Shown here piece after piece: positions 9,995-37,113 of a stretch of DNA of 64,000 nt. The first letter of the stretch is position 1; each line of letters opens with the position of its first letter. Source of the DNA: Roseateles saccharophilus (GTDB lineage: Bacteria; Pseudomonadota; Gammaproteobacteria; Burkholderiales; Burkholderiaceae_C). The notes below the pieces were generated by a model. The model ran no database searches, was not told the origin of the DNA, and saw nothing but the letters and a program-made list of their open reading frames with translations. The stretch covers positions 1 to 64,000 of the forward strand of contig NZ_SMBU01000006.1 in assembly GCF_004342485.1 (NCBI RefSeq), in the 5' to 3' direction. A program made the translations under genes and the position numbers.

Positions 9995-10063
9995 TGTCGG
10001 CCTGTGGCCGGCTTCGCTGTAGGACAGGCGGCGAAGCTGGGCGAATGCGGCCTTGTCCTACAG
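9995..10063. promoter_or_regulatory. CTGTAGGAC motif pair (inverted, 37-nt phase)
   Basis: CTGTAGGAC at 10017-10025 and its reverse complement GTCCTACAG at 10055-10063, the TGTAGGAC cores starting 37 nt apart. A related TGTCGGCC lies 23 nt upstream (9995-10002). The element lies in the divergent gap between the exported His-rich protein and the GGDEF-EAL gene. The same inverted pair with the same 37-nt offset is found at 37067-37113. It is likely a regulator binding site; the binder is not known. Confidence 0.55.
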
Positions 10064-10141
10064 GGCGGTGCCCGCCGGGCCGACGCCGGTTGCCAGGGCC
10101 GGCCGTCAAGCTAGCCATCCTTGGCATGGGAGCAAGATCCG

Positions 10142-12655
10142 ATGAGCGAACCCCTGCAGGCCGGCGCTGCCACGCAGCAGGCCCTGGCGCAGAACGCGCG
10201 CTTCCTGGAGCGCTGCAGCCGGCTGGCCGGCGTGGGTGCCTGGGAATGGCGGGCCGAGGCCGGGCAGCTGACGCTGTCGGACTCGGCCTGCGAACTGCTC
10301 GGCCTGCCTGCCGGCCGGGTGCCGACGCTGGCGGCGCTGCTGCAGCGCTTCGGCCCGGACGGCGCGGCCATGCTGGACGCGGCCCTGCAGCGCGCCGAGG
10401 TCGGCGGCCAGGGCTGGGACGTGGAGCTGCCTTGCAACGCGGGCGCGCGCGGCCGGCGCGTGCTGCGCGTCGTCGGCGGGCCGGACGGCGAAGGCGCCGA
10501 GCGTCGCGTCGGCGTCGTCATGCTGGACGTGACCGAGCCGGCCCAGGTGCGGGCCGAGCTGGAGCACACGCTCGAGCGCCTGGCCCTGGCCACGCACAGC
10601 GGCGGTATCGGCGTCTGGGAGCTGGACCTGCAGCCATCATCCCGCCAGGGCGAACTGGCCTGGGACGACGCGATGTGGCGGCTGCACGGCGAGGCGCCGC
10701 ATGGCCAGCAGGTCGACGCACGGCGCTGGCGCCTGCGCCTGCATCCGCAGGACCGCCGTGCCGCCACGCATGCCGTGGGCGCCGCGCTGCGCCCGGGCGG
10801 CGCGCCGCTGGAGGGCGAGTGGCGGGTCTGCTGGCCCGACGGCAGCCTGCGCGTGCTGCGCGCCTCGGGCCGCGTGCTGCGCGACGCCGCCGGCCGGCCG
10901 CTGCGCCTGTCGGGGGTCTGCTGGGACGTCAGCGAGGCGCGCCGCCTGCGCCAGCAGCTGGAGGAGCAGCACGAGCTGCTGGCGGTGACGCTGCAGTCCA
11001 TCGGCGACGCGGTGCTCACGACGGATGCCGCCGGCCGCGTGACCTGGCTCAACCCGGTGGCCCAGCGGCTGACGGGCTGGTCGGCCGCCGAGGCCCAGGG
11101 CCAGCCGGCCAGCCGCGTCTTCCTCGCCCAGAGCGAGGACGGCCGCAAGCCCCTGCCCGACCCGGTGCAGCGCTGCCTGACGACGGGCCGGCCCACCCAG
11201 CTGCCCGCCGGCGCCGTGCTGCTGGCCCGCGACGGCGGGCTGCGCGCGGTGGACGACTCGGTCGCCCCCATCCGCGATGCGGCCGGGCGCGTGCTCGGCG
11301 CCGTGCTGGTGTTCCGCGACGTGACCCAGCAGCGCCGCCAGTTCGACGAGATCCGCTGGCGCGCCAGCCACGACAGCCTGACCGGCCTCGTCAACCGCGC
11401 CGAGTTCGAGCAGCGCCTGGCGCGCGGCTTCGAGCGGGCCCGGCGCGACGGCAGCCAGCATGCGCTGCTGGCCTTCGACCTGGACCGCTTCAAGCTCGTC
11501 AACGACCACTGTGGCCATGCGGCCGGCGACGAGGTGCTGCGCGAGGTGGCGCAGCGGCTCGAGGCCGGCGTGCGCGGCCGCGACACGGTGGCGCGGCTGG
11601 GCGGCGACGAGTTCGCGGCCATCCTCGAGAACTGCTCGCTGGACGAGGCCCAGCGCGTCGCGCAGAAGCTCTGCGACACGATGGACCAGTACCGCTATGT
11701 GCATGGCGAGCAGCGCTTTCGCATCGGCGTGAGCATTGGCGTGGCGCCGCTGGACGGGCGCTGGCACGACGCCGACGCGGCCCTGCGCGAGGCCGACGCC
11801 TGCTGCATGACGGCCAAGGAGCAGGGGCGCAACCGCGTGCAGGTCTGGGCGCCCGACGATGCCGCGCTGCGCGCCCACCAGAGCGAGCATCGCTGGGTCA
11901 CGCGGCTGCAGCAGGCGCTGGATGAGGAGCGCTTCGAGCTGGACCTGCAACGCGTGTTGCCGGCCCAGGGGCCCGACGACGGCCGGCTGCGCGGCGAGCT
12001 GCTGCTGCGCTTGCGCGAGCGCGATGGCAGCCGCGTGCTGCCGGGCGCCTTCATGCCGGCGGCCGAGCGCTTCCACCTCGCGCCGCGGCTGGACCGCTGG
12101 GTGCTGCGCCAGGCCGTGGCCCTGCTGCACCGCACGGGCGAGCCGCCGATCGCGAGCCTGTCGGTCAATGTGTCGGCGCTGACGCTGCAGGATGCCGCCT
12201 ACCACCAGGAGGCCCGCACGCTGCTGCTCGGGCTCGGCCCGCAGCGCGCCTCGGCCCTGTGCCTGGAGATCACCGAGACGGCCGCCATCACCCAGCTCGG
12301 CGAGGCGGCCCGCTTCATCACGCAGATGCGCGCCCTGGGTGCGCGCATCGCGCTGGACGACTTCGGTGCCGGCTCGTCCTCCTACGGCCACCTGAAGGCG
12401 CTGCCGGTGGACCTGCTGAAGATCGACGGCCAGTTCGTGCGCGCGCTGATGACCGACCCGCTGGACCAGGCCGCCGTGCGCGGCTTCGTCGATGTGGCCC
12501 GCACGCTGGGCCTGACGACGGTGGCCGAGTGCGTGGAGACGCCCGAGGTGCTGCTGGAGCTGGTGCGCCTGGGCGTGGGCGAGGTGCAGGGCTTCCTGCT
12601 GCACCGCCCGCAGCCGCTGGCCGAGTTGCTGGCGGTGGCCAGGGAGGCCGCCTGA
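10142..12655 (+). CDS. PAS-GGDEF-EAL cyclic-di-GMP signalling protein
   Basis: 837 residues, no membrane segment. Three PAS-type sensory regions (about 20-125, 140-265 and 280-400) are followed by a GGDEF domain with intact LGGDEF (about residue 487). An inhibitory RGRD lies five residues before it. An EAL domain from about 590 reads ELLLRL at the EAL position and keeps the downstream metal/catalytic motifs (LEITETA, LDDFGAGSSS, LLKIDGQFV, VAECVETPE). Both synthesis and breakdown of c-di-GMP are therefore plausible. The ATG with GGGAG upstream (10142) was chosen. It probably senses a cytoplasmic signal or redox ligand through PAS; the ligand is not evident. The CTGTAGGAC pair lies 80 bp upstream. 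Confidence 0.92.
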   Translation: MSEPLQAGAATQQALAQNARFLERCSRLAGVGAWEWRAEAGQLTLSDSACELLGLPAGRVPTLAALLQRFGPDGAAMLDAALQRAEVGGQGWDVELPCNAGARGRRVLRVVGGPDGEGAERRVGVVMLDVTEPAQVRAELEHTLERLALATHSGGIGVWELDLQPSSRQGELAWDDAMWRLHGEAPHGQQVDARRWRLRLHPQDRRAATHAVGAALRPGGAPLEGEWRVCWPDGSLRVLRASGRVLRDAAGRPLRLSGVCWDVSEARRLRQQLEEQHELLAVTLQSIGDAVLTTDAAGRVTWLNPVAQRLTGWSAAEAQGQPASRVFLAQSEDGRKPLPDPVQRCLTTGRPTQLPAGAVLLARDGGLRAVDDSVAPIRDAAGRVLGAVLVFRDVTQQRRQFDEIRWRASHDSLTGLVNRAEFEQRLARGFERARRDGSQHALLAFDLDRFKLVNDHCGHAAGDEVLREVAQRLEAGVRGRDTVARLGGDEFAAILENCSLDEAQRVAQKLCDTMDQYRYVHGEQRFRIGVSIGVAPLDGRWHDADAALREADACCMTAKEQGRNRVQVWAPDDAALRAHQSEHRWVTRLQQALDEERFELDLQRVLPAQGPDDGRLRGELLLRLRERDGSRVLPGAFMPAAERFHLAPRLDRWVLRQAVALLHRTGEPPIASLSVNVSALTLQDAAYHQEARTLLLGLGPQRASALCLEITETAAITQLGEAARFITQMRALGARIALDDFGAGSSSYGHLKALPVDLLKIDGQFVRALMTDPLDQAAVRGFVDVARTLGLTTVAECVETPEVLLELVRLGVGEVQGFLLHRPQPLAELLAVAREAA

Positions 12656-12692
12656 GGCGGGCGCCCCCACTCGGCCTGCGGCCCCGGGCAGG

Positions 12693-13058
12693 CTAGCGCC
12701 GAGGTGCCAGGTCGGCGCGCAGCGGCTGCTGGCGGTCGCGGCCGGCGGCGGCCGGCGGCGGCAGTGGCGGCAGTGGCGGCGCGGCCTGGGCCACGACGGT
12801 GGAGGCGGCCCCGTCGGGCCGTGGCGCACTGCTGCCGTCCGCCACGGCGCGCAGCGTGACCTGCAGGCCGCGGGACAGCTGCGCCTGCCACAGCGCCAGC
12901 GTGTCGCCGGCCTTGTGCAGGGCGCTGCTGAGCTGCGCGTCCAGCGGTTGCGGGTCGTCGATGACGTCCAGGCCGGTGCTGGCCACCAGCGTGGCAATGG
13001 CGGCGACGAGGGCAGGCGCCTGCCAGCCGCCGGCGTGCCGGGACTTGGGGATTCGCAT
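12693..13058 (-). CDS. Small exported or membrane-anchored protein, unknown
   Basis: 121 residues starting MRIPKSRHAGGW, with GGAGG 5 nt before the ATG. A hydrophobic segment (about 13-30, APALVAAIATLVASTGL) acts as signal or anchor. The middle is ordinary (DAQLSSALHKAGDTLALWQA), and residues about 88-105 are proline-rich (PPLPPLPPP). I do not recognise it. A single CTGTAGGAC lies 116 bp upstream, in the gap to the histidine kinase gene. It is convergent with the GGDEF-EAL gene. Confidence 0.6.
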   Translation of the reverse strand: MRIPKSRHAGGWQAPALVAAIATLVASTGLDVIDDPQPLDAQLSSALHKAGDTLALWQAQLSRGLQVTLRAVADGSSAPRPDGAASTVVAQAAPPLPPLPPPAAAGRDRQQPLRADLAPRR

Positions 13059-13173
13059 GGGGTCCTCCAGACGGGCGGGTTCGAGAGCAGGCTGCCCGCA
13101 CGCCGGCGGGCAGCCCTGGCTTCCAGTCTGGATGGCGGCGCGCCCGCGGGCCGTCGGCCTGCGCAGGCTCGGC

Positions 13174-13182
13174 CTGTAGGAC
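13174..13182. promoter_or_regulatory. CTGTAGGAC motif
   Basis: Exact copy of the 9-mer, directly after the stop codon of the histidine kinase gene and upstream of the small exported protein (start 13058). GTCGGCCTG begins 21 nt before it, exactly as at 9996-10017, so about 30 bp of arrangement is shared between the two loci. Confidence 0.45.
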
Positions 13183-13183
13183 T

Positions 13184-14623
13184 TCAGGCCGCCGTCGCGG
13201 GGCCGGGCAGGTCGCCGGGCGCGGTGACGGCCGGCTCGTCCGGCGGCTCGGGCTCGGGCCGGCGGGGCAGGCGCGCCAGCACCAGCGTGCCGCGGCCCGG
13301 CGCGGACAGCAGCTGCAGCGTGCCGCCCAGGCTTTCGATGCGGTAGCGCATGCCCAGCAGGCCGTGGTGGCCGGCGCCGACGGCCTCGGGGTTGAAACCC
13401 TGGCCGTCGTCGCGGATGCTGAGCTGCAGCCAGCCCCCGCTCTCGTCGTTCGCCTCGCCGAGGGCCACGCGCACCTGCCGGGCCTGGGCATGGCGCAGCA
13501 CATTGGTCAGCGCCTCCTGCACGAGGCGGTACAGGGCCAGGCGGTCGGCGTCGTCGGTGGCGGTGTTGACGAGCTCCAGGTTGAGCTGCAGGCCGGAGCG
13601 CTGCGCGAACTCCTGGGTCAGGATCTCCAGCGCCGGGATCAGGCCGAGGTTGGACAGCACCGAGGGGCGCAGGTCCTCGATGATGCGGCGCTTCAGCGCG
13701 ATGCCCTGGTCGAGCAGCTCGCTCATGTGGCGCAGGCGCTCGTCGATCTCGGGCGCGGCGGTGCGCGTCATGCGGCGGATGCGGGCGACGTCGAGCTTGG
13801 CCGCCGTGAGCAGCGCGCCGAGCTCGTCGTGCAGCTCGCGCGCGAGGTGGGCGCGCTCGTCCTCGCGCACGGTCTGCAGGTGCTGGGCAAGCTCGGTCAG
13901 CTCGGCGGTGCGGTGCACGACCTCGCCGTCCAGCCGGTCGCGCTCGCGGGCCAGCGCCTGCGCGTACTCGCGCCGCGCCGCGTGCAGGGCCTCGTTGCGG
14001 CGCAGGAAGACGGCCAGGCCGAACAGGCTGAGCAGCGTCAGGCCGTGCACGCCGATGCGGCCATAGGTCAGCGAGCGGAACACGGCGTCGCGCTCGCGCG
14101 CGATCTGCACCAGCTCGTGGCGGTTCAGCTGCTCGACGGCGTCGCTGACCGCCTGCATCTTCTCGCGGCCGATGTCGGACTGCATCAGCCCCTGCCAGGC
14201 GTCGGTCGAGCCCTCGCGGTAGAGCTGCACGACGAGCTGCAGCTCGGACAGCTTCTCGTTGGCGCGCTGGGCCGCCTCGGCCACCAGGGCCTCCCACTCG
14301 GAGCTGGCGTACTGGCCGCGCAGGCGCGTCAGCGCGGCCGGCAGTTCGCGCTCGGCCAGCTTCAGCGGCGCGAGGTAGTCGTCGCGCCCGGTCAGCAGGA
14401 AGCCGCGTTGGGCGGTCTCGGCCTCGGTCAGCAGCTCGCGCAGGCGCAGGCCGTCGTTGCGGGCCTGGTGGCGGGCCTGGGACTGGGTCAGCGCCGCGTC
14501 GGCGCCCCAGAAGGCCGCCTCGCTGACGCCCATGACGGCCACCGCGGCCAGCGTGGCCAGGCCCAGCGCCAGGCCGCGATGGCGCCGCGCGCCCGCCAGC
14601 CAGGGGTCCAGGCGGTGCAGCAT
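13184..14623 (-). CDS. Sensor histidine kinase, CHASE3 and HisKA_3 type
   Basis: 479 residues. Transmembrane segments at about 16-38 and 193-212 enclose a CHASE3 periplasmic domain (LLTEAETAQRGFLLTGRDDY is its signature). A coiled coil leads to the NarX/DesK-type HisKA_3 site, ERAHLARELHDELG, with phospho-acceptor His265. The HATPase_c domain follows (LYRLVQEALTNVLRHAQARQ as N box, DDGQGF, GLLGMRYRIE). The C-terminus is a Pro/Glu tail. Kinases of this type pair with NarL/FixJ regulators; the one at 15865 is the natural partner, with the receiver-only protein at 14810 as a possible modulator. The signal is not evident. Confidence 0.93.
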   Translation of the reverse strand: MLHRLDPWLAGARRHRGLALGLATLAAVAVMGVSEAAFWGADAALTQSQARHQARNDGLRLRELLTEAETAQRGFLLTGRDDYLAPLKLAERELPAALTRLRGQYASSEWEALVAEAAQRANEKLSELQLVVQLYREGSTDAWQGLMQSDIGREKMQAVSDAVEQLNRHELVQIARERDAVFRSLTYGRIGVHGLTLLSLFGLAVFLRRNEALHAARREYAQALARERDRLDGEVVHRTAELTELAQHLQTVREDERAHLARELHDELGALLTAAKLDVARIRRMTRTAAPEIDERLRHMSELLDQGIALKRRIIEDLRPSVLSNLGLIPALEILTQEFAQRSGLQLNLELVNTATDDADRLALYRLVQEALTNVLRHAQARQVRVALGEANDESGGWLQLSIRDDGQGFNPEAVGAGHHGLLGMRYRIESLGGTLQLLSAPGRGTLVLARLPRRPEPEPPDEPAVTAPGDLPGPATAA

Positions 14624-14685
14624 GGGGGCTTCAGCTATCCGCGCCACATGGGCGGCGCCTGCGACGCTCGAAACCGGCGCATTGC

Positions 14686-14775
14686 GGGCCGAGCGCAGGG
14701 CCGCCCCAAGCCGGCCCGCGCTGGCGATGTGTTCGCGGTTCGAGGCCGCGAACATCGCCGCCCCCGCGGGGGGCG
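14686..14775. repeat. Intergenic hairpin repeat, family 2 copy D
   Basis: Lies upstream of the kinase gene. After GGGCCGAGCGC and CAAGCCGGCCCGCGC comes a stem in which GGCGATG and GTTCGCGG pair with CCGCGAAC and CATCGCC, then a C5/G6 hairpin. A copy at 42442-42532 has the same layout with compensatory changes in the stem (GCTTGCGG with CCGCAAGC). Read on the minus strand, both copies are open and would encode similar peptides, M(F/L)AAS then (R/K)HIA-like residues, but no ribosome site supports translation. Confidence 0.65.
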
Positions 14776-14809
14776 GACCAGCGCACCCGCTGGGCCGGGG
14801 GCGTCATAT

Positions 14810-15214
14810 TCAGGCCGCGGCCGGGCGCGGCGAGTCATGCTCGGCCAGCTCGGCGCAATAGGTGATCAGGTCGTCGAGCTCGTGGCTCTTGTCGAACACG
14901 CGTTCGGCCCCGAGGCTGGCGCAGCGGCGGCGCATCTCGTCGGTGGCGTAGTTCGTCAGCACGACACGGCGCGCCCGCACGCCCAGGCGCTGAGCGGCCT
15001 GCAACACCCCTAGGCCCGTGCCCGAGCGCAGGAAGACGTCGACGATGAAGAGGTCGGCATTGGCATTGGGGTCGCGGCTCATCCAGCGCACCGCGCCGGC
15101 CTCGTCGGGCACGGAGCCGACGACCTCGACCTGCGCCAGCTCCTCGAGCGTGGCCACCAGGTTCTCCAGGATCACCGGGCTGTCTTCGACGATGAAGGCT
15201 TTGAGTGCTGGCAT
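14810..15214 (-). CDS. Receiver-only response regulator
   Basis: 134 residues forming a single CheY-like receiver: acidic pocket VEDS (Glu10, Asp11), phospho-acceptor Asp59 in LFIVDVFLRSG, a Thr in VVLTNYA, and a Lys in VFDKSHELD. No output domain follows. Such proteins act as phosphate sinks or as connectors to other kinases. It sits upstream of the HisKA_3 kinase on the same strand, separated by the family-2 repeat, and probably takes phosphate from it. A palindromic CTGTAGGAC element is 95 bp upstream of its start. Confidence 0.9.
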   Translation of the reverse strand: MPALKAFIVEDSPVILENLVATLEELAQVEVVGSVPDEAGAVRWMSRDPNANADLFIVDVFLRSGTGLGVLQAAQRLGVRARRVVLTNYATDEMRRRCASLGAERVFDKSHELDDLITYCAELAEHDSPRPAAA

Positions 15215-15308
15215 GGCCCGACGCAAGGCAGCGAGGGAGGAGGGGATGGGGTGGGTGCAAGTATGAACCGCTTCGGCGCCGCGCCGCCCGGGTCGGCAGC
15301 CCATCGCG

Positions 15309-15327
15309 CTGTAGGACTTGTCCTAGG
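15309..15327. promoter_or_regulatory. Palindromic CTGTAGGAC element
   Basis: CTGTAGGAC, a TT spacer, then GTCCTAGG form a compact inverted repeat (TAGGAC paired with GTCCTA). It lies between the BON gene and the receiver gene, 95 bp upstream of the latter. This is the only copy where the two half-sites are adjacent, which suggests a dimeric binder. Confidence 0.55.
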
Positions 15328-15348
15328 CACGGGCGCCGGGCCCGGGGT

Positions 15349-15675
15349 TTACGAGGGGCGCACGACGATGCCGTTGCGCACGGCGACGACGCCCGAGGTC
15401 TCGCGGGCGAGCTTCTCGGCCGTCGCGCGCTCGTTCTCGCTCTTGGCGAAGCCGGACAGCTGCACCGTTCCCTTCAGCGTCTCGACGCTGATGGCCAGCG
15501 CGCTGACGGTGGGGTTGTCGGCGAACTTGGCCTTCACGCGGGTGGTCAGCGTCGCGTCGTCGAGGTAGGCGCCGACGCTCTCCTGGCTGCGCGTGACCGC
15601 GCAGCCGCCGGTGGCGGCCAGCGTGGCGGTGAGGGCGGTGGCGACGGCGAGGGTCAGGATGGGCTTGTTCGTCAT
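15349..15675 (-). CDS. BON domain envelope protein
   Basis: 108 residues. A signal peptide ends at a lipobox-like LAATGGC (Cys about 25), so it is probably a lipoprotein. The rest is one BON domain (LTTRVKAKFADNPTVSALAI through VVAVRNGIVV), a fold thought to bind phospholipid and typical of OsmY-like stress proteins. GGAGA lies 6 nt before the ATG. The upstream gap to the NarL-type regulator carries TGTCGGAC and CTGTAGGAC in direct repeat. Induction by the neighbouring two-component system is inferred from this context. Confidence 0.85.
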   Translation of the reverse strand: MTNKPILTLAVATALTATLAATGGCAVTRSQESVGAYLDDATLTTRVKAKFADNPTVSALAISVETLKGTVQLSGFAKSENERATAEKLARETSGVVAVRNGIVVRPS

Positions 15676-15771
15676 GGTGATCTCCTTTTGTGAAGAGGCA
15701 GCCGCGCAGGCCGCTGGCACGACTATCGCCGGCCGCCGCGGCGCACGGGATAGGCCCGCGGCGCGGCCCGG

Positions 15772-15801
15772 TGTCGGACGCGGCCGGCGCCGCTGTAGGA
15801 C
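15772..15801. promoter_or_regulatory. Direct-repeat CTGTAGGAC element
   Basis: TGTCGGAC (15772-15779) and TGTAGGAC (15794-15801) are in direct repeat with a 22-nt period, about two turns of DNA, so both would face the same side of the helix. They lie in the divergent gap between the BON gene (start 15675) and the NarL-type regulator gene (start 15865). Confidence 0.5.
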
Positions 15802-15864
15802 TGCGGCTATCGCGGCGGCGGCGCGGCGCTGCTACGCTGGCGTCCCCTGCCAATACCTCACGCC

Positions 15865-16512
15865 ATGATCCGAATCGGCATCGTCGACGACCACGCCATC
15901 GTGCGCACCGGCCTGCGCCAGTTCCTGTCCGACCACGTCGACCTGCGCGTCACCGGCGAGGGCGCGAGCGGCAAGGACGCCCTCGAGATGGCGCGCGGCG
16001 GCGAGGTGGACGTGCTGCTGCTCGACATCTCCATGCCCGACCAGAGCGGCGTGGACGCACTGGCGGCCATCAAGGCGCGCTTCCCCGAGCTGCCGGTGCT
16101 CATCCTGAGCGGCTTCCCCGAGGCGCACTACGCGACGACGCTGCTGCGCCAGGGCGCCAGCGGCTATCTGAACAAGGAATGCGACCCCGAGGAGATCGCC
16201 AACGCGATCCGCGTCGTCGTGCGCGGGCGGCGCTACATCAGCCCGGCCGTGGCCGAGCAGCTGGCCGACAGCGTCGTCGGCGGCACGCCCGGCGCGCCGC
16301 CCGACAAGCCGCTGCACGAGGCGCTGTCCGAGCGCGAGTTCCAGGTCTTCCTGCGACTGGCACAGGGCGAGACGGTGGGGCATATCGCCGAGGCGCTCTT
16401 CCTGAGCGTGAAGACGGTCAGCACCTACCGCACGCGCGTGCTCGAAAAGCTCAAGCTGCAGACCAACAGCGACCTGACCTACTACGCGCTGAAGAACGGG
16501 CTGATCCAGTAG
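15865..16512 (+). CDS. NarL/FixJ family response regulator
   Basis: 215 residues. The receiver domain (1-120) has the acidic pair DD (8-9), phospho-acceptor Asp54 in LLLDISMPD, and a Lys in YLNKECDPEE. The LuxR-type helix-turn-helix (about 150-210) reads LSEREFQVFLRLAQGETVGH, then IAEALFLSVKTVSTYRTRVL. It is the probable DNA-binding output of the CHASE3 kinase at 13184. The repeated CTGTAGGAC sites around this cluster are its most likely targets, and it may control its own promoter. That assignment is inferred, not shown. Confidence 0.93.
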   Translation: MIRIGIVDDHAIVRTGLRQFLSDHVDLRVTGEGASGKDALEMARGGEVDVLLLDISMPDQSGVDALAAIKARFPELPVLILSGFPEAHYATTLLRQGASGYLNKECDPEEIANAIRVVVRGRRYISPAVAEQLADSVVGGTPGAPPDKPLHEALSEREFQVFLRLAQGETVGHIAEALFLSVKTVSTYRTRVLEKLKLQTNSDLTYYALKNGLIQ

Positions 16513-16530
16513 CCCGCGGCGCTCAGGCCC

Positions 16531-16716
16531 TCATTCGCCGGCGGGCCTGCCGTCGTCGGGCACGTCGGCCAGCGTCCAGGGCTGGGCCGACTCGTAGCCG
16601 AGGGCCGCCTCCGCCGGCGTCGTGGCCGAGGCCCACCAGCGGCTCAATGTCGACCAGAGGCCGCGTGGAGCGGCCTCCGTGTCGGGCTGCTGGGGCGTGA
16701 AATCGTCATCGGCCAT
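16531..16716 (-). CDS. Small acidic protein, 61 aa, unknown
   Basis: Starts MADDDFTPQQPDTEAAPRG with GGAG 7 nt upstream of the ATG. It is acidic and Trp-rich (LWSTLSRWWASATTPAEAAL), without cysteines, signal peptide or a long hydrophobic stretch. It is convergent with the NarL-type regulator, 18 bp apart. I do not recognise it. A weak relative of the motif (TGTCGGAT at 16794-16801) lies 78 bp upstream, so it might belong to the same regulon. Confidence 0.55.
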   Translation of the reverse strand: MADDDFTPQQPDTEAAPRGLWSTLSRWWASATTPAEAALGYESAQPWTLADVPDDGRPAGE

Positions 16717-16865
16717 GGTCGGCTCCGGCTTGGGTCACGGCCCCAGCATGGCCGGCCCGGCGGGGCTTGCGAATCGGCGGGTGGCGATTCGGCGTGTCGG
16801 ATCAGGCTGACAAGGCCGCTCGGTTTCGCATGCGATCGACAGGCCGCTGGCCCACAATCCGGCGC

Positions 16866-17639: not shown

Positions 17640-17645
17640 CGGGAT

Positions 17646-20862: not shown

Positions 20863-20871
20863 CGGGCCAGT

Positions 20872-23300: not shown

Positions 23301-23307
23301 GCCCGCA

Positions 23308-26158: not shown

Positions 26159-26162
<4 letters not shown>
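25560..26162 (-). CDS. YdeI/OmpD-associated family protein with DUF1801-like domain
   Basis: 200 residues. The N-terminal DUF1801-like part (about 10-100) contains RLREDVHAACPGVVETIKWS, RPHFTLDGKLLAGMSAFKAH and CAFGFWERE. The C-terminal YdeI part contains DFAAALAQVRAARQHYDAFP, then PGKQRDYLEWVLEAKREETR and RRIAQAVEWLAEGKSRNWKY. These families are structurally related to iron-chaperone-like folds, but their function is not settled. Translation starts at an ATG overlapping the stop of the TMEM175 gene (ATGA), so the two are co-expressed. Confidence 0.85.
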
Positions 26163-26743
<581 letters not shown>

Positions 26744-26793
26744 TGAGACGAGTCTAGACTTTCGACTCCTGCCCGCTGCCTCCGGACTGACCC

Positions 26794-27801: not shown

Positions 27802-27807
27802 ACGACG

Positions 27808-30800
27808 TTACATGCTGCGGCGGTACTGGCCGCCGACCTCGAACAGCGCGCCGGTGATCTGGCCCAGCGAGCACACGCGCACGGCGTCCATCAGCACATC
27901 GAACACATTGCGGTTCTCGATGACGGCCTGCTGCAGCCGGGCCAGCATCGCAGGCGCCTCGGCCGCATGGCGGGCGTGGAAGTCCGCCAGGCGGGACAGC
28001 TGCGACTGCTTCTCCTCGTCCGTCGAGCGCGCCAGCTCGATGTGCTCGGGCACCGTCTCGCCATGCGGGTTGCGGAAGGTATTGACGCCGATGATGGGGT
28101 ACTCGCCGGTGTGCTTGAGCATCTCGTAGTGCATCGACTCCTCCTGGATGCGGCCACGCTGGTAGCCGGTCTCCATCGCGCCGAGCACGCCGCCGCGTTC
28201 GCTGATGCGCTCGAACTCCGCCAGCACGGCCTCCTCGACCAGCTCGGTCAGCTCGTCGATGATGAAGGCGCCCTGCGACGGGTTTTCGTTCTTGGCCAGG
28301 CCCCACTCGCGGTTGATGATGAGCTGGATGGCCATCGCGCGGCGCACGCTGTCTTCCGTGGGCGTCGTGATCGCCTCGTCGAAGGCATTGGTGTGCAGCG
28401 AGTTGCAGTTGTCGTAGATCGCGATCAGCGCCTGCAGCGTCGTGCGGATGTCGTTGAAGGCGATCTCCTGCGCATGCAGGCTGCGGCCCGAGGTCTGCAC
28501 GTGGTACTTCAGCTTCTGTGAGCGCTCGTTGGCGCCGTACCGGTCGCGCATGGACACGGCCCAGATGCGGCGGGCGACGCGGCCCAGCACCGTGTACTCC
28601 GGGTCCATGCCGTTGCTGAAGAAGAAGCTCAGGTTGGGCGCGAAGTCGTCGATGTGCATGCCGCGCGCCAGATAGGCCTCGACGAAGGTGAAACCGTTGG
28701 ACAGCGTCAGCGCGAGCTGCGAGATCGGGTTCGCGCCGGCCTCGGCGATGTGATAGCCCGAGATGCTTACCGAGTAGAAGTTGCGCACGTTGTGGTGCAC
28801 GAAGAACTCGGCGATGTCGCCCATGACCTTCAGGCTGAACTCGGTCGAGAAGATGCAGGTGTTCTGGCCCTGGTCTTCCTTCAGGATGTCGGCCTGCACG
28901 GTGCCGCGCACATTGGCCAGCACCCAGTCCTTGATCTTGGCGGCCTCGTCGGCGGTGGGCTCGCGGCCGTTGTCGGCGCGGAACTTGGCCAGGTTCTGGT
29001 CGACGGCCGTGTTCATGAACATGGCGAGGATGGACGGCGCCGGTCCGTTGATCGTCATCGACACCGAGGTGCTGGGGTTGCACAGGTCGAAGCCGTCGTA
29101 GAGCACCTTCATGTCGTCCAGCGTCGCGATGCTGACGCCGGAGTTGCCGACCTTGCCGTAGATGTCGGGCCGCGGCGCGGGGTCGGCACCGTAGAGCGTG
29201 ACCGAGTCGAAGGCCGTGGACAGGCGCTTGGCCGGCATGCCCTCTGACACCAGCTTGAAGCGGCGGTTGGTGCGGAAGGCGTCGCCCTCGCCGGCGAACA
29301 TGCGGGTCGGGTCCTCGCCCTCGCGCTTGAAGGCGAACACGCCGGCCGCGTAGGGGAAGCTGCCGGGCACGTTCTCCAGCATCAGCCACTTCAGCAGCTC
29401 GCCATGGCATTCGTAGCCGGGCAGCACGACCTTGCGGATCTTGGTGCCGGACAGGCTTCTGGTGACCAGGGCCGTGCGGATCTCCTTGTCGCGGATCTTC
29501 ACGACGTACTCGTCGCCGGCATAGGCCTTGACCATGTCGGGCCACTGGGCCAGCAGTTGGCGGGCGTCGCCGTCGAGCCTGTTGCGGCGCTGCTCGGCCA
29601 GGTCGGCCAGCGCGGTGCGGGCGCCGTTCTTGTCGGGGTTGGCTGCCTCCAGCATCGCGCGGCTGGCTTCGAGCTGCTGGATCTCGCGGGCCAGGGCGGC
29701 CTGGCGGCGCGCGCGGCCCTTGTAGGCGCGCACCGTGTCGCTGATGTCGGCCAGATAGCGCACGCGTGCCGGCGGCACGATGGGCGTCTGGTGGGTGCTG
29801 TGGCGGGTGTGGACCGGGGGCAGGCGGCCCTCGCTCAGCTTGAGGCCCAGCTCGCCGAGGCGGGCCTTCAATGCCTGGTAAAGGGCGGTGACGCCGTCGT
29901 CATTGAAGCGGCTTGCCATCGTGCCGAACACGGGCATCGCGTCCGGCGACTGGCCAAACGCCTCGCGGTTGCGCTGCACCTGCTTGCTCACGTCGCGCAG
30001 CGCGTCCAGCGAGCCCTTGCGGTCGAACTTGTTGATGGCGACGAACTCGGCGAAGTCCAGCATGTCGATCTTCTCGAGCTGGCTGGCGGCGCCGAACTCG
30101 GGCGTCATCACATACATGGGCACGTTCACCAGCGGCACGATGGCCGCGTCACCCTGGCCGATGCCCGAGGTCTCGACGATGACGAGGTCGAAGCCCGCCA
30201 CCTTGGCCGCGGCGATGACGTCGGGCAGGGCCGGCGAGATCTCGGAGCCGAAGTCGCGCGTGGCCAGCGAGCGCATGAAGACGCGGGACCCCTGGCCCCA
30301 CGGCGAAATGGCGTTCATGCGGATGCGGTCGCCCAGCAGTGCGCCGCCGCTCTTGCGGCGCGACGGGTCGATGGAGATCAGTGCCACGCGCAGCTGGTCG
30401 CCCTGGTCCAGGCGCAGGCGGCGGATCAGCTCGTCGGTCAGGCTGGACTTGCCGGCGCCGCCGGTGCCGGTGATGCCGAGCACCGGCGTCTTGATGTCTT
30501 TGGCCTGCTCGCGCAGCGCGTCGACCAGCGCCGCGTCGGCCTTCTCGTTCTCGAGAGCCGTCAGCAGCTGGGCCAGCGAGCGCCAGGCGGCTTCGGAATG
30601 GCCGGTGATCGCGGACAGGGCCTTGGGCGCGTGCACGCTGAAGTCCTGGTCGGCCTTCATGACCATCTCGCCGATCATCCCTTGCAGGCCCATGCGCTGG
30701 CCGTCCTCGGGGCTAAAGATGCGCACGCCATGCTCGGCCAGCTCGCGGATTTCGGCCGGCACGATGACGCCGCCGCCGCCGCCGAAGACCTGGATATGGG

Positions 30801-31098
30801 CGCCGCCGCGCTCCTTCAGCAACTGCACCATGTACTTGAAATACTCGACATGGCCGCCCTGGTAGGAGCTGATGGCGATGCCCTGGGCGTCTTCCTGCAG
30901 TGCGGCGGTGACGACCTCGTCCACCGAGCGGTTGTGCCCGAGGTGGATGACCTCGGTGCCCATGCCCTGCAGGATGCGGCGCATGATGTTGATGGCGGCG
31001 TCATGCCCGTCGAACAGGCTGGCGGCGGTCACGAAACGGACCTTGTGGGTCGGGCGGTACTCGGCCAGCGCCTTGTAGTCGGCGGCGAGATCGGTCAT
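27808..31098 (-). CDS. icmF: Fused isobutyryl-CoA mutase (B12-dependent acyl-CoA mutase with G-protein chaperone)
   Basis: 1096 residues in the IcmF order: B12-binding domain (about 15-150, with [20 protein letters not shown], the lower-ligand histidine), a MeaB-like G-protein domain (about 190-440; P loop [17 protein letters not shown]), a linker, then the mutase barrel (about 540-1096, including [20 protein letters not shown] and [11 protein letters not shown]). It interconverts isobutyryl-CoA and n-butyryl-CoA, with possible activity on other branched acyl-CoAs. AAGGAGA precedes the ATG. A perfect palindrome of LiuR type sits 36 bp upstream, so it is probably repressed by the MerR-type regulator at 46030. 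Confidence 0.96.
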
Positions 31099-31133
31099 GG
31101 CTGTCTCCTTGCTTGGCCGCGATTTTAGGCGGC

Positions 31134-31155
31134 CAATTGACGTTAACGTCAATTG
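31134..31155. promoter_or_regulatory. LiuR-type operator upstream of icmF
   Basis: A perfect 22-bp palindrome: CAATTGACGTT followed immediately by its exact reverse complement AACGTCAATTG. The core TTGACGT-TA-ACGTCAA fits the operator of MerR-family LiuR, which controls branched-chain amino acid breakdown in proteobacteria. It lies between icmF and the divergent OPT gene (start 31247). A second site, TGACGTAAACGTCA, lies next to a LiuR-like gene at 46457-46470. Confidence 0.8.
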
Positions 31156-31246
31156 AGGTGATTTGAGGGTTATCAGGCTCTCGTCAGCCTGTGGCCTGCC
31201 GCGATGATGCGCACCTCGCCAGATCCGGCCATCTCCCTCTCGACGC

Positions 31247-33235
31247 ATGAGCACCTCATCGCCAAACCACACGCCCGAACTGGGCACCGAACTGACGCTG
31301 CGCGGCATCGTCCTCGGCATCCTCATCACCCTGGTCTTCACGGCCGCCAACGTCTATTTCGGCCTGAAGGCCGGCCTGACCTTCGCGACGTCGATCCCGG
31401 CCGCCGTCATCTCGATGGCGCTGTTGCGCAAGGCCGCCGGCAACTCGATCGGCGAGACCAATATCGTGCAGACCATCGCCTCGTCGGCGGGCACGCTGTC
31501 GTCCATCATCTTCGTGCTGCCCGGCCTGGTGATGATCGGCTGGTGGAGCGGCTTCCCCTACTGGATGTCGACGACGCTGTGCGCGCTGGGCGGCGTGCTG
31601 GGCGTCATGTACTCCATCCCGCTGCGGCGCGCGCTGGTCACGAACTCGCCGCTGCCCTATCCGGAGGGCGTGGCCTGCGCCGAGGTGCTCAAGATCGGCC
31701 ATGCCGCCGAGAGCGGCGAGAGCAGCCGCCAGGGCCTGGTGGCCATCGTCACCGGCGCTCTCGTGTCGGCGGGCTTCAGCGTCGTCGTCGCGACTCAGGT
31801 CTTCGCGGCCAACCTGGCGCAGTATTTCCGGCTGCCCGGCGGGGAGAAGAGCGGCAATGGACCCGCAACAGGCTATGACCTGAACTTCAGCTTCGCGTTG
31901 CTGGCCGTGGGCCATCTCGTCGGCCTGTGGGTGGGCATCGCCATCCTGGTCGGCGCGGCCATCGGCTGGCTGGGCGGCGTGCCCCTGCTGACCCAGGGCG
32001 TGGACGGCGCGGCCGAGGCCGTCGCGATGTTCGCCTGGAGCAAGAAGGTGCGCTTCATCGGCGCCGGCTGCATCGCCGTGGCCGCCATCTGGACGCTGGT
32101 CAAGCTGGCCAAACCCGTCGTCGCCGGCCTGCATTCGGCGGCCATGTCCGCCCGCGTTCGCAAGGCCGGCAAGGGCGACACGCTGCCGCGCAACGAGCGT
32201 GACATCCCCATCGGCACGGTGGGCCTCATCACGCTGGCCTGCATGCTGCCCATCGGCTTCATGCTGTCCAGCTTCGCGACCTCGGCCGGTTTGTCCGACC
32301 AGCTCGGCCTGCTGGTCGTCGGCGGCGTCGTCTACGTCGTGCTGATGAGCTTCTTCGTCGCCGCCGTCTGCGGCTATATGGCCGGCCTGATCGGCTCGTC
32401 CAACAGCCCGCTGTCGGGCGTGGGCATCCTGGTCGTCATCGGCGTGTCGCTGCTGCTGGCCCTGGTCGTCAAGCCGCTGCTGCCGGCCTCGACGGGCCAG
32501 GCCCTGGTGGCGTTCGCGTTGTTCGTCACGGCCGTCGTGTTCGCGGTGGCCACCATCTCCAACGACAACCTGCAGGACCTGAAGACCGGCCAACTGGTGG
32601 ACGCCACACCCTGGCGCCAGCAGGTGGCGCTGATCATCGGCGTGCTGGCCGGCGCTGTCGTCATCCCGCCGGTGCTGGACCTGCTGAACCAGGCCTATGG
32701 TTTTGCCGGCGCGCCCGGTGTGGACGCCAAGAAGGCGCTCGCCGCGCCGCAGGCCGCGCTGATCTCGGCGCTGGCCAAGGGCGTCATCCAGGGCGACCTG
32801 AACTGGAACCTGATCGGCATCGGCGCGGCCATCGGCGCGGCCTGCATCGTCGTCGACGAGGCGCTGAAGCGCTCGACCGCAGGCAAGGCCCATCTGGCGC
32901 CGCTGGCCGTGGGCCTGGGCATCTACCTGCCGATGAACAGCACGCTGACCATCGTCGTCGGCGCCGTGGCTGGCTGGCTGTTCGAGCGCGCCGCCGCGCG
33001 CCGTCGCGATGCCGAGGCCACCAAGCAGCTCGGCGTGCTGATGGCCTCGGGGCTGATCGTCGGCGAGAGCCTGCTCGGCGTCATCCTCGCGGCCGTCGTC
33101 GTGTTCTCGGGCAATGGCGCACCGCTCGCGCTGGTGGGCGACAGCTTCGCCACCTCCGGCCAGGTGCTGGGCTTCCTGGCCTTCGCCGGCATCGGCTTCG
33201 GGCTCTACCGCTGGCTGCTCAAGCCCCGCGGCTGA
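31247..33235 (+). CDS. OPT family oligopeptide transporter
   Basis: 662 residues, about 15-16 membrane helices. Family landmarks: [74 protein letters not shown] near the first third, and [20 protein letters not shown] in the centre. Prokaryotic OPT proteins take up oligopeptides or metal-siderophore compounds; which one cannot be told here. Its gene is divergent from icmF over a 148-bp region holding the LiuR-type palindrome, so it may be under the same control. Its last 31 bases overlap the 3' end of the MFS gene. Confidence 0.92.
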
Positions 33236-34461
33236 GGCTGCCCGCCCCCGCGCTGCAGCCGCCAGATCAGCAGGCCGACGACCAGCGTCGTGCCGATCAG
33301 CACATTGCCGACCCAGGGGAAGTGCTCCAGCCGGCCGTCCGGCGCGATGTGCACGATATGGCCGGACACCAGGGCCGCCAGGCCGCCGGCGAGCTGCTGC
33401 AGCGCCGCGTTGATGGCGCTGAAGGAGCCGCGCTGCTCGGGCGCCGGGATGCCGGCGACGATGACCTGCCAGGGCACCATGCGCGAGAAGATGCCGACGA
33501 ACAGCACCACGTTGATGAGGATCAGCAGGGCCAGCGGCGAGGGCCCGAGCCGGGTGTAGATCGCGACCATGGCGATGGTCAGCAGGCTGCCCGTGTAGAA
33601 CACCGGCAGCGGGCCGAGGCGGTCGGTCAGGCGGCCGACGGTCGGCGCGACGAACAGCGTGCTGATGCCGGTGACGAGGTAGACGAGGGGCAGGTGCTCC
33701 AGCGCGATGCCGACGTTGTGCACCGAGAAGGCGCTGGCGAAGGGCATGATCATGAAGCCGCCCGTCGTCAGCAGTGCCGTGATCGCGAAGGCCTGCAGGT
33801 GCCGGCCGTTGGCCACTGTGTGCAGCAGATGCCTGAAGGCGCTGCGGTCGTTGGGCAGGGCCAGATGGGCGTCCACCGGCTTCATGCGCCAGGCGATCAG
33901 CAGGCCGCCGAGAGCGCCGAAGGCGGCCAGCGCGATGAAGGGCGCATGCCAGTCCCAGTGCGTGGCCAGGAACAGACCGAAGGGCAGGCCCAGCACCTGG
34001 CTGGCCGCGAAGCCGCCCTGCAGCAGGCCCATCACGCGGCCGCGCAGCGCCGGCTCGAACAGGTCGGCCGTGATGGCCATGACGATGGAGCCGATGACGC
34101 CGCCGAACAGGCCGGTCACGATGCGCGCGAGCAGCAGCATCTCGAAGCTGCTCGCCAGGCCGCACCAGACCGTGCCGAGCAGGAAGCCCGCGTAAAAGAA
34201 CAGCAATAGCTTCTTGCGGTCGAAGCGGTCGGCGAAGCCGGCCGTCAGCAGGCCGGAGATGCCGGCGCTGAAGGCATAGGCCGACACGACGAGGCCGAAT
34301 TGCTGGGCCGTCATCGACAGCGCCGGCATGATCAGCGCGCCCAGTGGCGACATGATCATGAAGTCCAGGATGACGGCGAACTGCAGCAGCGTCAGCAGCG
34401 CCGTCGCGAAGCGCTGGTAGGGGCTGAGAACGGGCGGTGCGGAGGGCTGGGCGTCGGGCAT
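33205..34461 (-). CDS. MFS transporter
   Basis: 418 residues with 12 predicted membrane helices. The loop 2-3 motif of the major facilitator family appears as GFADRFDRKKLLLF (about 75-90), and the second-half counterpart as GRLTDRLGPLPVF. Helix 1 reads FAVILDFMIMSPLGALIMPA, the pattern of drug or sugar efflux members. The substrate cannot be inferred. It starts at an ATG with a short leader and is convergent with the OPT gene (31-bp overlap). It is divergent from a hypothetical gene at 34646, with a GTCCTACAG element between. Confidence 0.9.
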   Translation of the reverse strand: MPDAQPSAPPVLSPYQRFATALLTLLQFAVILDFMIMSPLGALIMPALSMTAQQFGLVVSAYAFSAGISGLLTAGFADRFDRKKLLLFFYAGFLLGTVWCGLASSFEMLLLARIVTGLFGGVIGSIVMAITADLFEPALRGRVMGLLQGGFAASQVLGLPFGLFLATHWDWHAPFIALAAFGALGGLLIAWRMKPVDAHLALPNDRSAFRHLLHTVANGRHLQAFAITALLTTGGFMIMPFASAFSVHNVGIALEHLPLVYLVTGISTLFVAPTVGRLTDRLGPLPVFYTGSLLTIAMVAIYTRLGPSPLALLILINVVLFVGIFSRMVPWQVIVAGIPAPEQRGSFSAINAALQQLAGGLAALVSGHIVHIAPDGRLEHFPWVGNVLIGTTLVVGLLIWRLQRGGGQPQPRGLSSQR

Positions 34462-34557
34462 GGTGGCGGGCCTTCGGTGAAGCGGCTGCGCAGTGTCGAT
34501 CGGCGGCGGTCAGTTCGTGGCAGCAGACTTCCGATTAGGGGGTGCCGACAGGCCCTT

Positions 34558-34566
34558 GTCCTACAG
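34558..34566. promoter_or_regulatory. CTGTAGGAC motif (complement orientation)
   Basis: GTCCTACAG, the reverse complement of CTGTAGGAC, followed by the hypothetical gene 80 bp downstream. CCGACAGGCCCTT precedes it, so a TGTCGG-like second half-site is present 15 nt away in the same orientation. Confidence 0.45.
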
Positions 34567-34645
34567 CGTGGCGCGTCTGCGGCCCACGCGCGCCCGGGGC
34601 GGCCGGGGCGAAATTCAGGGCAGCCACGTTCCGCGGAGTCGCGCC

Positions 34646-35104
34646 ATGAGCGCTGCCATGCCAAGCCAGCCCCCTTCGAACCCGGCCGCGCCGCTGCCGT
34701 CGATCTGCATCGTCGGCACCGCCGAGGCGCTGCAGCGCGCGCGCGCCGATCTTGCCGTGCTGGCCGACGCCCGCGTGGAGCTGCTCACCTGGTGCCTGGA
34801 CGCCGAGTTCGGCGAACCACCGCCCGCGGCGGACTGGGCCGATGCTCTCGTCGTGCTCAATGCCGACGCCTGGGCCGCGCCCAGCGGCTGCGCACGGTTG
34901 CAGGCGCTGCTGAAGATGGCCTGGCGCTGCGGCCGCACGGTAGCCCTGTGCGGCGAAGCGCTCAGCTCACTGCAGGTGCTGGGCTTCGCGCCCGACGTGC
35001 CGGCGGAGGCCGAAGGCCTCTTCCTTTGCCCCGACGGCCCCTGCGCCGCCACATTGCGCGAGTTTCTGGACGCGGTCTACGATCAGCCGCGCCGCAGGCG
35101 CTGA
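34646..35104 (+). CDS. Hypothetical protein, 152 aa
   Basis: Starts MSAAMPSQPPSNPAAP with GGAG about 8 nt upstream of the ATG. The body has an alternating beta/alpha look: PSICIVGTAEALQRARADLA, then WADALVVLNADAWA, RTVALCGEALSSLQVLGF and EAEGLFLCPDGPCAATLREF. This resembles a Rossmann-type or DJ-1/DsrE-like fold, but I cannot place it. No signal peptide. Its last 22 bases overlap the 3' end of the AsmA-like gene. A CTGTAGGAC-type site lies 80 bp upstream, placing it in the putative stress regulon. Confidence 0.6.
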   Translation: MSAAMPSQPPSNPAAPLPSICIVGTAEALQRARADLAVLADARVELLTWCLDAEFGEPPPAADWADALVVLNADAWAAPSGCARLQALLKMAWRCGRTVALCGEALSSLQVLGFAPDVPAEAEGLFLCPDGPCAATLREFLDAVYDQPRRRR

Positions 35105-37011
35105 ACGGCGGCGGCCGCGCCCGTGTTGCGCGGCCGGGGCGGTTCTTCGCAGCGCAGCGGCGGCAGTGCCTCGCCGGGGTCGACGAAGGCCAGCAGCGCG
35201 GCGGGTGGCGCCAACACGCCGAGCGCCGCCGCTGCAGCGGCGCGCCCGCCCAGGGCCCGGCCTTCCAGCGTGACGCTCGGCGCGGCCAGCCGGCCCTGCA
35301 CATGCAGCGGCGTGCGCAGCGTCAGCGGCGAGAAGTCCTTGGGCCGGGTGACGATGCGCAGGTCCAGGCTCTCGTCGGCGAGGCTGACGCGGCCGCCCAG
35401 CTCGATGCGGCTGTCGCTGCTGTCCAGCACGGCCGAGCGCGGCCTGAGCACGCCGCTGCGGAAGCGGCCGTCCAACAGCGCGCAGTCCAGCGGCAGGTTG
35501 CTGTCGCCGCGCAGCCACATGCCCAGGCCCTCGACGAGGTCCAGGCCCGCGGCCTCGGTCAGCAGATGCGACAGGCTGCCGTGCTCCAGGCGCAGGCGCA
35601 GCGGGCCGTCCAGGCTGCCGAGCAGTTCGGCGGTGCTACGGCCGTGGCCCTGCACGTCCAGCGCGGCGCGCAGGCGGCCGGTCAGCGGCTGGCGGCTGAG
35701 GCCCTTGAGCTGGGGCCGGAGCCACTGCTCCACGGCCAGGCCGTGGACGTCGGCGCGCGCCTGCCATTGCGGCGGGCTGGCGCGCGTATCCAGCCTTGCC
35801 GTGCCGGCCACCTCGCCGCCCGCGACGCCGGCGCTGAAGTTGTCCAGGCTCAGCACGCCGGCCTCGAGCAGCAGGCTGGCGTTGACTGGCGCGAGCGGCG
35901 CCAGGCTGGCGTTGCCGAGGTCGACTCGGCTCAGCGCGATGGTGACGCGTGCATCCATCGCGCCCAGCGCCGGCAGGTCCAGCGGCCTGTCGGGCAGCAC
36001 GCGGCCGGGCCGGCTTGGCGGGGTGTCGGTGCCGATGGCCGGCCCGAGGTCGGCCAGGCGCAGCGGCCCGCCGTGCAGCAGGCCGCTGAGCAGCGGGCGC
36101 GCGGGGCGGGTCGTGTCGAAGGCGAAGTCGCCGGCCAGCCGGCTGCCGCCAATGCGGGCGCGCACCTCGTCGAGCCGCCAGTGGCCAGCGGCATGCCGCA
36201 GCCAGCCGTCCAGCGCGAGGGGCGGCGTGTGCGGCAGCGTCAGGCCGAAGGGCCGGCCGACAGCGGCGAGCGAGCGGCCCTGCACGTGCAGGGCGCCGTC
36301 CAGCGCGCGTGCATCCAGCAGCGACGTGGCCGTACCGGCGAAGGAGATCCGACCGTCGCTCTGACTCAGCTCGGCCACGAGGCGCACCGGCGGCAGGCCG
36401 GCCTGCGGCGGCGACAGCAGGGCCAGGCCGGCGCTGGCCTCGGCCTTCAGCGCGAGCTGCTGGCCGCGCAGCCGGCCCTGCAGCGTGGCGCTCCAGCGGC
36501 CGTCGTCGGCGGTCTCGAAGCGGGTGTCGCCGAGCAGTTGCAGCGGCATGTCGTCCAGATGCGCCGTGCCGGCGCGGATGACGAGGTGGTCGATCCGCGG
36601 CAGCGGCGCGGGCCTGTCCTGCGGGCCGCCGGCCTGCAGCGGCCAGGGGCTGCGGCCGGCGGCGTCGCGCCGCCAGTCCAGTGTGAGGGCGGCGGCCTGC
36701 ACCAGGCGCAGCCGCAGGGGCGCGCCATGGCGCCAGGCCTCGATGTCGCGCCACTGCCAGGCCAGCGTGACGCCGCCGGCGTCCGCCAGGGTCTGGCCGT
36801 CGGCGGCGACGAGGCGCAGCCGCGGCGCCTCCAGCCGCGGGCGCCATAGCAGGTGCAGCCTGGCCCCCGCGTCCAATTGCAGGCCGAGGTCGGCGCGCTG
36901 CGCGAGCCTGGGCGCCAGGCCCGGCCAGCCGGCCAGGTCCAGGCTCACGGCGGCGAGTGCCGGCAGCAGCAGCAGCGCGCCGATGGCGACGGCGGACTTC
37001 GCATGCTTCAT
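35083..37011 (-). CDS. AsmA-like envelope protein
   Basis: 642 residues anchored by one N-terminal helix (AVAIGALLLLPALAAVSLDL). The body is a long series of beta strands typical of AsmA/TamB-like proteins, which span the periplasm and are linked to lipid transport and outer-membrane homeostasis. The C-terminal AsmA-2-like region includes GLDLVEGLGMWLRGDSNLPL, DCALLDGRFRSGVL, RIELGGRVSLADESLDLRI, and TPLHVQGRLAAPSV. The start MKHAKSAVAIG begins at 37011. It is divergent from the BON lipoprotein gene (37203), and the inverted CTGTAGGAC pair lies in their shared promoter region. Confidence 0.85.
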   Translation of the reverse strand: MKHAKSAVAIGALLLLPALAAVSLDLAGWPGLAPRLAQRADLGLQLDAGARLHLLWRPRLEAPRLRLVAADGQTLADAGGVTLAWQWRDIEAWRHGAPLRLRLVQAAALTLDWRRDAAGRSPWPLQAGGPQDRPAPLPRIDHLVIRAGTAHLDDMPLQLLGDTRFETADDGRWSATLQGRLRGQQLALKAEASAGLALLSPPQAGLPPVRLVAELSQSDGRISFAGTATSLLDARALDGALHVQGRSLAAVGRPFGLTLPHTPPLALDGWLRHAAGHWRLDEVRARIGGSRLAGDFAFDTTRPARPLLSGLLHGGPLRLADLGPAIGTDTPPSRPGRVLPDRPLDLPALGAMDARVTIALSRVDLGNASLAPLAPVNASLLLEAGVLSLDNFSAGVAGGEVAGTARLDTRASPPQWQARADVHGLAVEQWLRPQLKGLSRQPLTGRLRAALDVQGHGRSTAELLGSLDGPLRLRLEHGSLSHLLTEAAGLDLVEGLGMWLRGDSNLPLDCALLDGRFRSGVLRPRSAVLDSSDSRIELGGRVSLADESLDLRIVTRPKDFSPLTLRTPLHVQGRLAAPSVTLEGRALGGRAAAAAALGVLAPPAALLAFVDPGEALPPLRCEEPPRPRNTGAAAAVQRLRRG

Positions 37012-37066
37012 GTCGCCATGCTGGGCGCGCGCGGGCGGGGCCGGCGTGGGACGGCCGCGGCCGCGC

Positions 37067-37113
37067 CTGTAGGACGGGGCCGGCGGGCTGGCGTTGTCGG
37101 CCTGGTCCGACAG
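37067..37113. promoter_or_regulatory. CTGTAGGAC motif pair (inverted, 37-nt phase)
   Basis: CTGTAGGAC at 37067-37075 and GTCCGACAG at 37105-37113, with half-site cores (TGTAGGAC and GTCCGACA) starting 37 nt apart, as in the element at 10017-10063. It lies 90 bp upstream of the BON lipoprotein gene and 56 bp upstream of the AsmA-like gene. Confidence 0.5.

Follow-up and report, generated by a model that had tools for sequence, protein, structure and literature searches.

The repeated motif and the element that contains it

A nine-base motif, CTGTAGGAC, recurs between the genes of a 64-kb stretch of contig NZ_SMBU01000006.1 of Roseateles saccharophilus (positions 1 to 64,000, hereafter the window), and the question raised by this locus is to what larger element the motif belongs and which protein might read it. 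On the other strand the motif reads GTCCTACAG, and it was found to be the upstream part of a longer element on that strand, GTCCTACA-N16/17-CCGAC-N20/22-hexamer, in which the hexamer is −10-like. The element has a fixed geometry and direction, is conserved in relatives and is associated with the gene of a NarL/GacA-type response regulator at 15865–16512. We are fairly confident in the prediction that this conserved element is bound by that regulator, which would thereby activate envelope and stress genes.

The exact motif occurs seven times on the two strands of the window, at 10017 (+), 10055 (−), 13174 (+), 15309 (+), 15793 (+), 34558 (−) and 37067 (+), and all seven copies are intergenic when the open frames are taken as genes, as a preliminary description of this DNA had reported. 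That description had put the chance level at 0.3 copies; in 100 dinucleotide-preserving shuffles the mean was 0.06 and the maximum 2, and thus the excess is real and larger than estimated. When one mismatch was allowed, 17 matches were found in the window against 5.99 expected, and one of these, CTGTCGGAC at 37105 (−), is the eighth member of the set. The whole genome (5.77 Mb, 108 contigs) has 18 exact copies, seven of them within the window; of the remainder, five are apparently intergenic or upstream of genes and six lie within long open frames, one of which resembles that of ribosomal protein L20. With 6 of the 11 outside copies in open frames, the 9-mer alone is not a clean or exclusively intergenic marker, and a spread over coding DNA, which the preliminary description had named as evidence against a regulon, is partly true of it. 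The bare 9-mer was therefore rejected as the unit, the direction and spacing being accounted for by the longer element.

A CCGAC block lies 16–17 bp downstream of GTCCTACA in seven of the eight window promoters (four exact, three with one mismatch), and in these promoters the second block is followed by TTCACT, CAAGCT, CAGACT, TATCCC, GAAATT, CAGCAT or CAAATT. The distance from the start of GTCCTACA to the hexamer is 52 bp in seven of the eight promoters and 49 bp in the first BON promoter. The promoter of the lone receiver gene is without a good second block and has instead the near-palindrome CCTAGGACAAGTCCTACA, with GTCCTACA placed 52 bp before CATACT. The divergent regions at 10017/10055 and 37067/37105 have two copies each, one per outward-facing gene. 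The elements are as follows.

9968–10025, minus strand: element of the His-rich gene (GTCCTACA 10018–10025, CCGAC 9996–10000, TTCACT 9968–9973)
10055–10112, plus strand: element of the GGDEF-EAL gene (GTCCTACA 10055–10062, CCGAC 10080–10084, CAAGCT 10107–10112)
13125–13182, minus strand: element of the small exported protein gene (GTCCTACA 13175–13182, CCGAC 13153–13157, CAGACT 13125–13130)
15260–15327, minus strand: element of the lone receiver gene (near-palindrome CCTAGGACAAGTCCTACA 15310–15327, CATACT 15260–15265)
15747–15801, minus strand: element of the first BON gene (GTCCTACA 15794–15801, CCGAC 15773–15777 with spacing 16, TATCCC 15747–15752)
34558–34615, plus strand: element of the hypothetical gene at 34646 (GTCCTACA 34558–34565, CCCAC 34583–34587, GAAATT 34610–34615)
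37018–37075, minus strand: element of the AsmA-like gene (GTCCTACA 37068–37075, CCCAC 37046–37050, CAGCAT 37018–37023)
37105–37162, plus strand: element of the second, lipoprotein-like BON gene (GTCCGACA 37105–37112, CCGAA 37130–37134, CAAATT 37157–37162)

The direction of the element names eight predicted targets, which are listed here with the proposed regulator and kinase.

9489–9929, minus strand: His-rich exported protein, target, without a Pfam or NCBIfam match
10142–12655, plus strand: PAS-PAS-GGDEF-EAL c-di-GMP protein, target (Pfam)
12693–13058, minus strand: small exported protein, target, without a Pfam or NCBIfam match
13184–14623, minus strand: CHASE3 sensor histidine kinase with HisKA_3, proposed partner (Pfam; adjoins the regulator in congener loci)
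14810–15214, minus strand: lone receiver-domain protein, target (Pfam)
15349–15675, minus strand: BON-domain protein 1, target (Pfam)
15865–16512, plus strand: NarL/FixJ-type response regulator with receiver and GerE/LuxR helix-turn-helix domains, proposed binder (Pfam, orthologs, co-occurrence)
34646–35104, plus strand: hypothetical protein of 152 aa, target, without a Pfam or NCBIfam match, with relatives in 14 congeners
35083–37011, minus strand: AsmA-family protein, target (Pfam)
37203–37565, plus strand: BON-domain protein 2, target (Pfam)

Conservation within the genus

The genus-level comparison covered congeners including Pelomonas and Roseateles species, and gave 143 rows of orthologous upstream regions. 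A site was accepted under a strict rule when GTCCTACA and CCGAC, with no more than one mismatch in each, lay 16–18 bp apart on the strand of the gene. The element was present in 54 of the 143 rows, against a mean of 1.1 and a maximum of 5 for 100 permuted consensuses. It was found in the upstream regions of the first BON gene in 14 of 15 congeners, of the GGDEF-EAL gene in 13 of 15 rows (one row had no upstream DNA) and of the small exported protein gene in 12 of 12. The AsmA-like gene has it in 7 of 20 rows, which are all seven usable ones, the upstream DNA of the other 13 being cut off or misplaced. The second BON gene gave 0 of 1 by the strict rule, and similar stretches were seen in several of five congener regions.

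Two promoters keep forms of their own. The lone receiver promoter satisfies the strict rule in 1 of 17 congeners and carries TAGGA-N4-TCCTACA in 16 of the 17; 14 of these 16 regions have the hexamer at 52 bp. The hypothetical gene has GTCCTAC[AG] followed 44 bp later by NANNNT in 14 of 14 congeners, with a related second block in 10 of them. The spacers diverge between copies and between orthologs, and the blocks and their spacing are kept. Thus the same directional element stands before the member genes and is kept in relatives, as expected of a regulon, although the case is weaker for the His-rich gene and for the second BON gene. The preliminary description had held that a regulon would be contradicted if related species lacked the motif at these promoters; for most promoters such a loss was not observed.

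The upstream regions of the kinase and regulator genes gave 0 of 17 each by the strict rule. The preliminary description had counted the NarL-type regulator as the downstream target of the copy at 15793; that copy points to the BON gene at 15349–15675 (−), and the regulator was rejected as its target in the activating direction on the absence of the element from all its congener upstream regions against its near-constant presence at the BON gene. The regulator gene may still be affected through the divergent BON promoter.

Conservation beyond the genus

An alignment of 13 regulator sequences was used to select the best 80 named loci of a larger set, among which were Hydrogenophaga, Rubrivivax, Sphaerotilus, Ideonella, Aquabacterium, Leptothrix, Rhizobacter, Methylibium and Azohydromonas. 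Nine loci with 92–98% identical regulators were set aside and the other 71, including some from Pelomonas and Roseateles with more distant regulators, were scanned for exact GTCCTACA and CCGAC (up to one mismatch) 16–18 bp apart. The element was found in 52 of the 71 loci, at 67 sites; 200 permuted consensuses averaged 2.0 loci (at most 19) and 2.0 sites (at most 20), and none reached 67 sites.

The hexamer was recovered at these sites as well. Among the 58 sites with N17, TANNNT lies at offset 22 in 32, at 20 in four, at 8 in two and at 23 in one, with none elsewhere between 8 and 39. Outside the blocks used for searching, the strongest columns of the profile are an A after CCGAC and TANANT, and a weaker TCGGC is seen upstream. 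A palindromic form, TGTMGG-N6-CCTACA, was also indicated: TGTMGG stands at the expected place, with at least four of six matches, in 35 of the 67 sites, the other high offset (−1) being the fixed search block itself. Three loci of other families with regulators of 48–52% identity, taken as a negative control, gave 1, 0 and 0 loose matches, too few to weigh much.

Association with the regulator gene

The product of 15865–16512 has the domains of a NarL/FixJ-type regulator (Response_reg 91.4 bits, cut-off 30.2; GerE 55.6 bits, cut-off 23.5), and its orthologs, at 93–98% identity, are present in 17 of 19 congeners. Its best NCBIfam match is the GacA/UvrY/SirA family at 175.2 bits, below the family cut-off of 280, and no BvgA family model is among its best 25 NCBIfam matches. 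A second regulator, 82–85% identical to it, was seen in nine congeners, mostly beside BON or receiver homologs, and is absent from the genome of the window; by a loose rule run without a control, all nine of these paralog loci have at least one element site.

The tie between the element and the regulator was examined in a family sample of 250 genomes, 127 of which carry the regulator at E ≤ 1e-75, with the strict pattern GTCCTACA-N16/17-CCGACA. The pattern was present in 45 of the 127 genomes with the regulator and in 2 of the 123 without it (Fisher p = 2.5e-13); the reversed-pattern control gave 9 and 3, respectively (p = 0.14). Among the genomes that carry a homolog of the BON target, the element was found in 43 of 110 with the regulator and in 0 of 29 without (p = 6.5e-6). 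The sites also cluster near the gene: of the 52 sites in the genus 38 are no further than 10 kb away, and of the 73 in the family 24; in the same 20 genus genomes the reversed control had 22 matches against the 52 sites. The two congeners without the regulator had no site. From these associations we infer that the product of 15865–16512 is the binder. The preliminary description had put forward the NarL-type regulator for a test of binding; the co-occurrence and clustering favour it as the likely activator, although it is not itself among the targets.

Genes downstream of the element

In other genera the downstream gene was picked by a rough open-frame heuristic, which gave a frame for 65 of 67 sites; Pfam names came from one representative per cluster, and the BON and receiver names from matches to the proteins of the window. 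The clusters are BON (19), CsbD (6), DUF1328 (6), a small family that Pfam does not match (6, one of them reading differently), receivers (4), ferritin-like (4), OmpA (4) and thioesterase-like (2), the rest being pairs or single. Outside the window, the same genome has sites ahead of a BON gene (L005) and of a gene for a 119-aa protein that Pfam does not match (L008); relatives of the latter in five congener loci also have the site, these five having been found by the pattern itself. Both BON proteins of the window match the OsmY model of NCBIfam weakly, BON protein 1 below its cut-off.

The small family that recurs after the element, to which the L008 protein belongs, has about 94–164 aa, a motif like LSTPLTVVVRA...LALVIPRSRC and a start about 65 bp after GTCCTACA, which makes its genes almost leaderless. 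In two congeners (L095, L106) the gene after the element encodes a secreted, lipoprotein-like protein rich in glycine, which resembles a CAP/SCP-domain protein. Beside the cluster, 5806–9405 is a 1199-aa open frame with congener matches; several loci split it into two pieces in different frames, and the true gene there may differ from the long frame.

Contrary observations and alternative explanations

Several results weigh against a regulon run by this regulator. Of the 15 congener upstream regions of the His-rich gene only 7 contain the element, and for the hypothetical gene the strict rule gave 0 of 14; 19 of the 71 distant loci are without the strict element, and the palindrome partner reaches four of six matches in only three of the eight window sites. 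As to the regulator, 82 of the 127 genomes that bear it are without the strict element, its paralog in nine congeners could share the sites, and the genomes without it may be smaller or lower in GC, which would lower the number of chance matches; the reversed control leans slightly the same way. The two congeners without the regulator also lack relatives of the second BON and hypothetical proteins, and hence prove little. Relaxed patterns did no better than controls in the genome of the window, where matches to a composite with three mismatches numbered 437 (reversed control, 422) and those to GTCCKACR-N16/17-CYSAC 14 (control, 17), and a whole-genome regulon list was given up for this reason. 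The pattern GTCCTACAG-N13/15-GSCCGAC gave 18 matches against 16 in 60 relatives, made up of 16 against 5 within the genus and 2 against 11 in the 40 genomes of other genera; this contrast would be seen if the code drifts from genus to genus, or if at such a distance the signal is hidden by chance matches.

The loose tie seen in distant genera, together with three further NarL/FixJ-type regulators in the genome (E < 1e-30, 40–45% identity to the product of 15865–16512), would suit an element bound by a different regulator of this family, with the neighbouring regulator merely linked. This is unlikely in view of the skewed co-occurrence and of the clustering of sites around the neighbouring gene in both genus and family. 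An alternative sigma factor promoter, with GTCCTACA or CCGAC as the −35 box, would explain the fixed distance to a conserved hexamer. A usual −35/−10 pair does not reach over 21 bp, which is the distance from CCGACA to the hexamer, and GTCCTACA lies further upstream still; the hexamer (TANANT in distant loci) resembles an ordinary sigma-70 −10 box, and the palindromic form at the receiver promoter fits a dimeric activator, so that we give this explanation very little credence. The copies might instead belong to a dispersed repeat or be what is left of a mobile element, without a role in regulation. Short exact copies that are all intergenic in the window are in keeping with this view, which is yet hardly tenable with 18 copies genome-wide, spacers that differ between kept blocks at kept spacing, and copies that each face a gene and have the hexamer at a constant distance.

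Proposed mechanism and comparison with known systems

With the hexamer taken as −10, GTCCTACA occupies −64 to −57 and CCGACA −39 to −34; the blocks are 22–23 bp apart and the second ends near −34, a layout that dimers may occupy. In the mechanism that we propose for the regulator, the CHASE3 kinase would phosphorylate it, and a first dimer would bind the box around GTCCTACA, whose fuller form is TGTMGG-N6-CCTACA, with its centre near −65.5. A second dimer would sit about 23 bp downstream on the same helix face, where it would cover the CCGACA half-site near −42.5, abut the −35 region and recruit RNA polymerase to promoters that have a −10 box and no good −35 box, as in class II activation. At the receiver promoter a single near-palindrome would replace the two-part layout at the same distance. 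The lone receiver protein is the product of the gene with this near-palindromic site of the set, and it might serve as a phosphate sink or antagonist of the regulator.

The system was compared with known ones. In enteric bacteria, osmotic, acid or envelope stress is handled by EvgA and RcsB, response regulators of the GerE type. The PDB matches include EvgA, and the weak OsmY resemblance of both BON proteins recalls these systems, whereas the regulator falls short of both NCBIfam family cut-offs (EvgA 88.4 bits, cut-off 251; RcsB 59.1 bits, cut-off 235). An EvgA binding sequence was not found in the part of the literature searched. BvgA of Bordetella differs in its targets, and the kinase here is a simple CHASE3 protein, unlike BvgS, a large kinase. 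The likeness is in the sites: in the portions of PMC7250471 consulted, BvgA is described as binding a 14-bp inverted repeat with a TCCTA half-site, the primary site of Pfha being TAAGAAATTTCCTA and that of the receiver promoter here TAGGACAAGTCCTA, and its dimers as binding every 22 bp with the last abutting −35, similar to the tandem sites about 22–23 bp apart predicted here. The GacA box, given as TGTAAG-N6-CTTACA in the accessible part of PMC4950607, has the same design as TGTMGG-N6-CCTACA, in agreement with the best NCBIfam match of the regulator; the excerpts of that source place GacA sites upstream of small RNA genes, whereas the predicted targets here are protein genes with a near-promoter site. 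Among the papers listed in literature searches with two 8-mers, and with BON, CsbD, DUF1328 or CHASE3 together with regulators, none described a promoter element of this kind; PMC5192318, in its available text, deals with a different four-gene Burkholderia operon.

The best reading is a regulon of envelope and stress flavour under activation of the GacA/BvgA kind. The envelope or stress regulon of the preliminary description is supported, with its unit corrected to the longer element on the opposite strand. More tentatively, and with rather less than even confidence, the two-component system could be a master switch of the envelope and osmotic or drying stress response across the family (Pelomonas, Roseateles, Hydrogenophaga, Rubrivivax, Ideonella and kin), in which one promoter code with a 52-bp rule would gather BON/OsmY-like, CsbD, DUF1328, ferritin-like, OmpA and c-di-GMP genes, and the lone receiver would act as a built-in feedback. 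If true, this system would do what falls to RpoS, Rcs or an ECF sigma factor in other bacteria. The short motif has become a testable promoter code, made of two blocks and a hexamer whose distances are fixed, for which a regulator and a kinase can be named as candidates. The code suggests a class of function for genes that are poorly understood, such as BON, CsbD, DUF1328 and the small family without a Pfam match, and it may allow likely regulon members near the regulator to be read from sequence in environmental bacteria.

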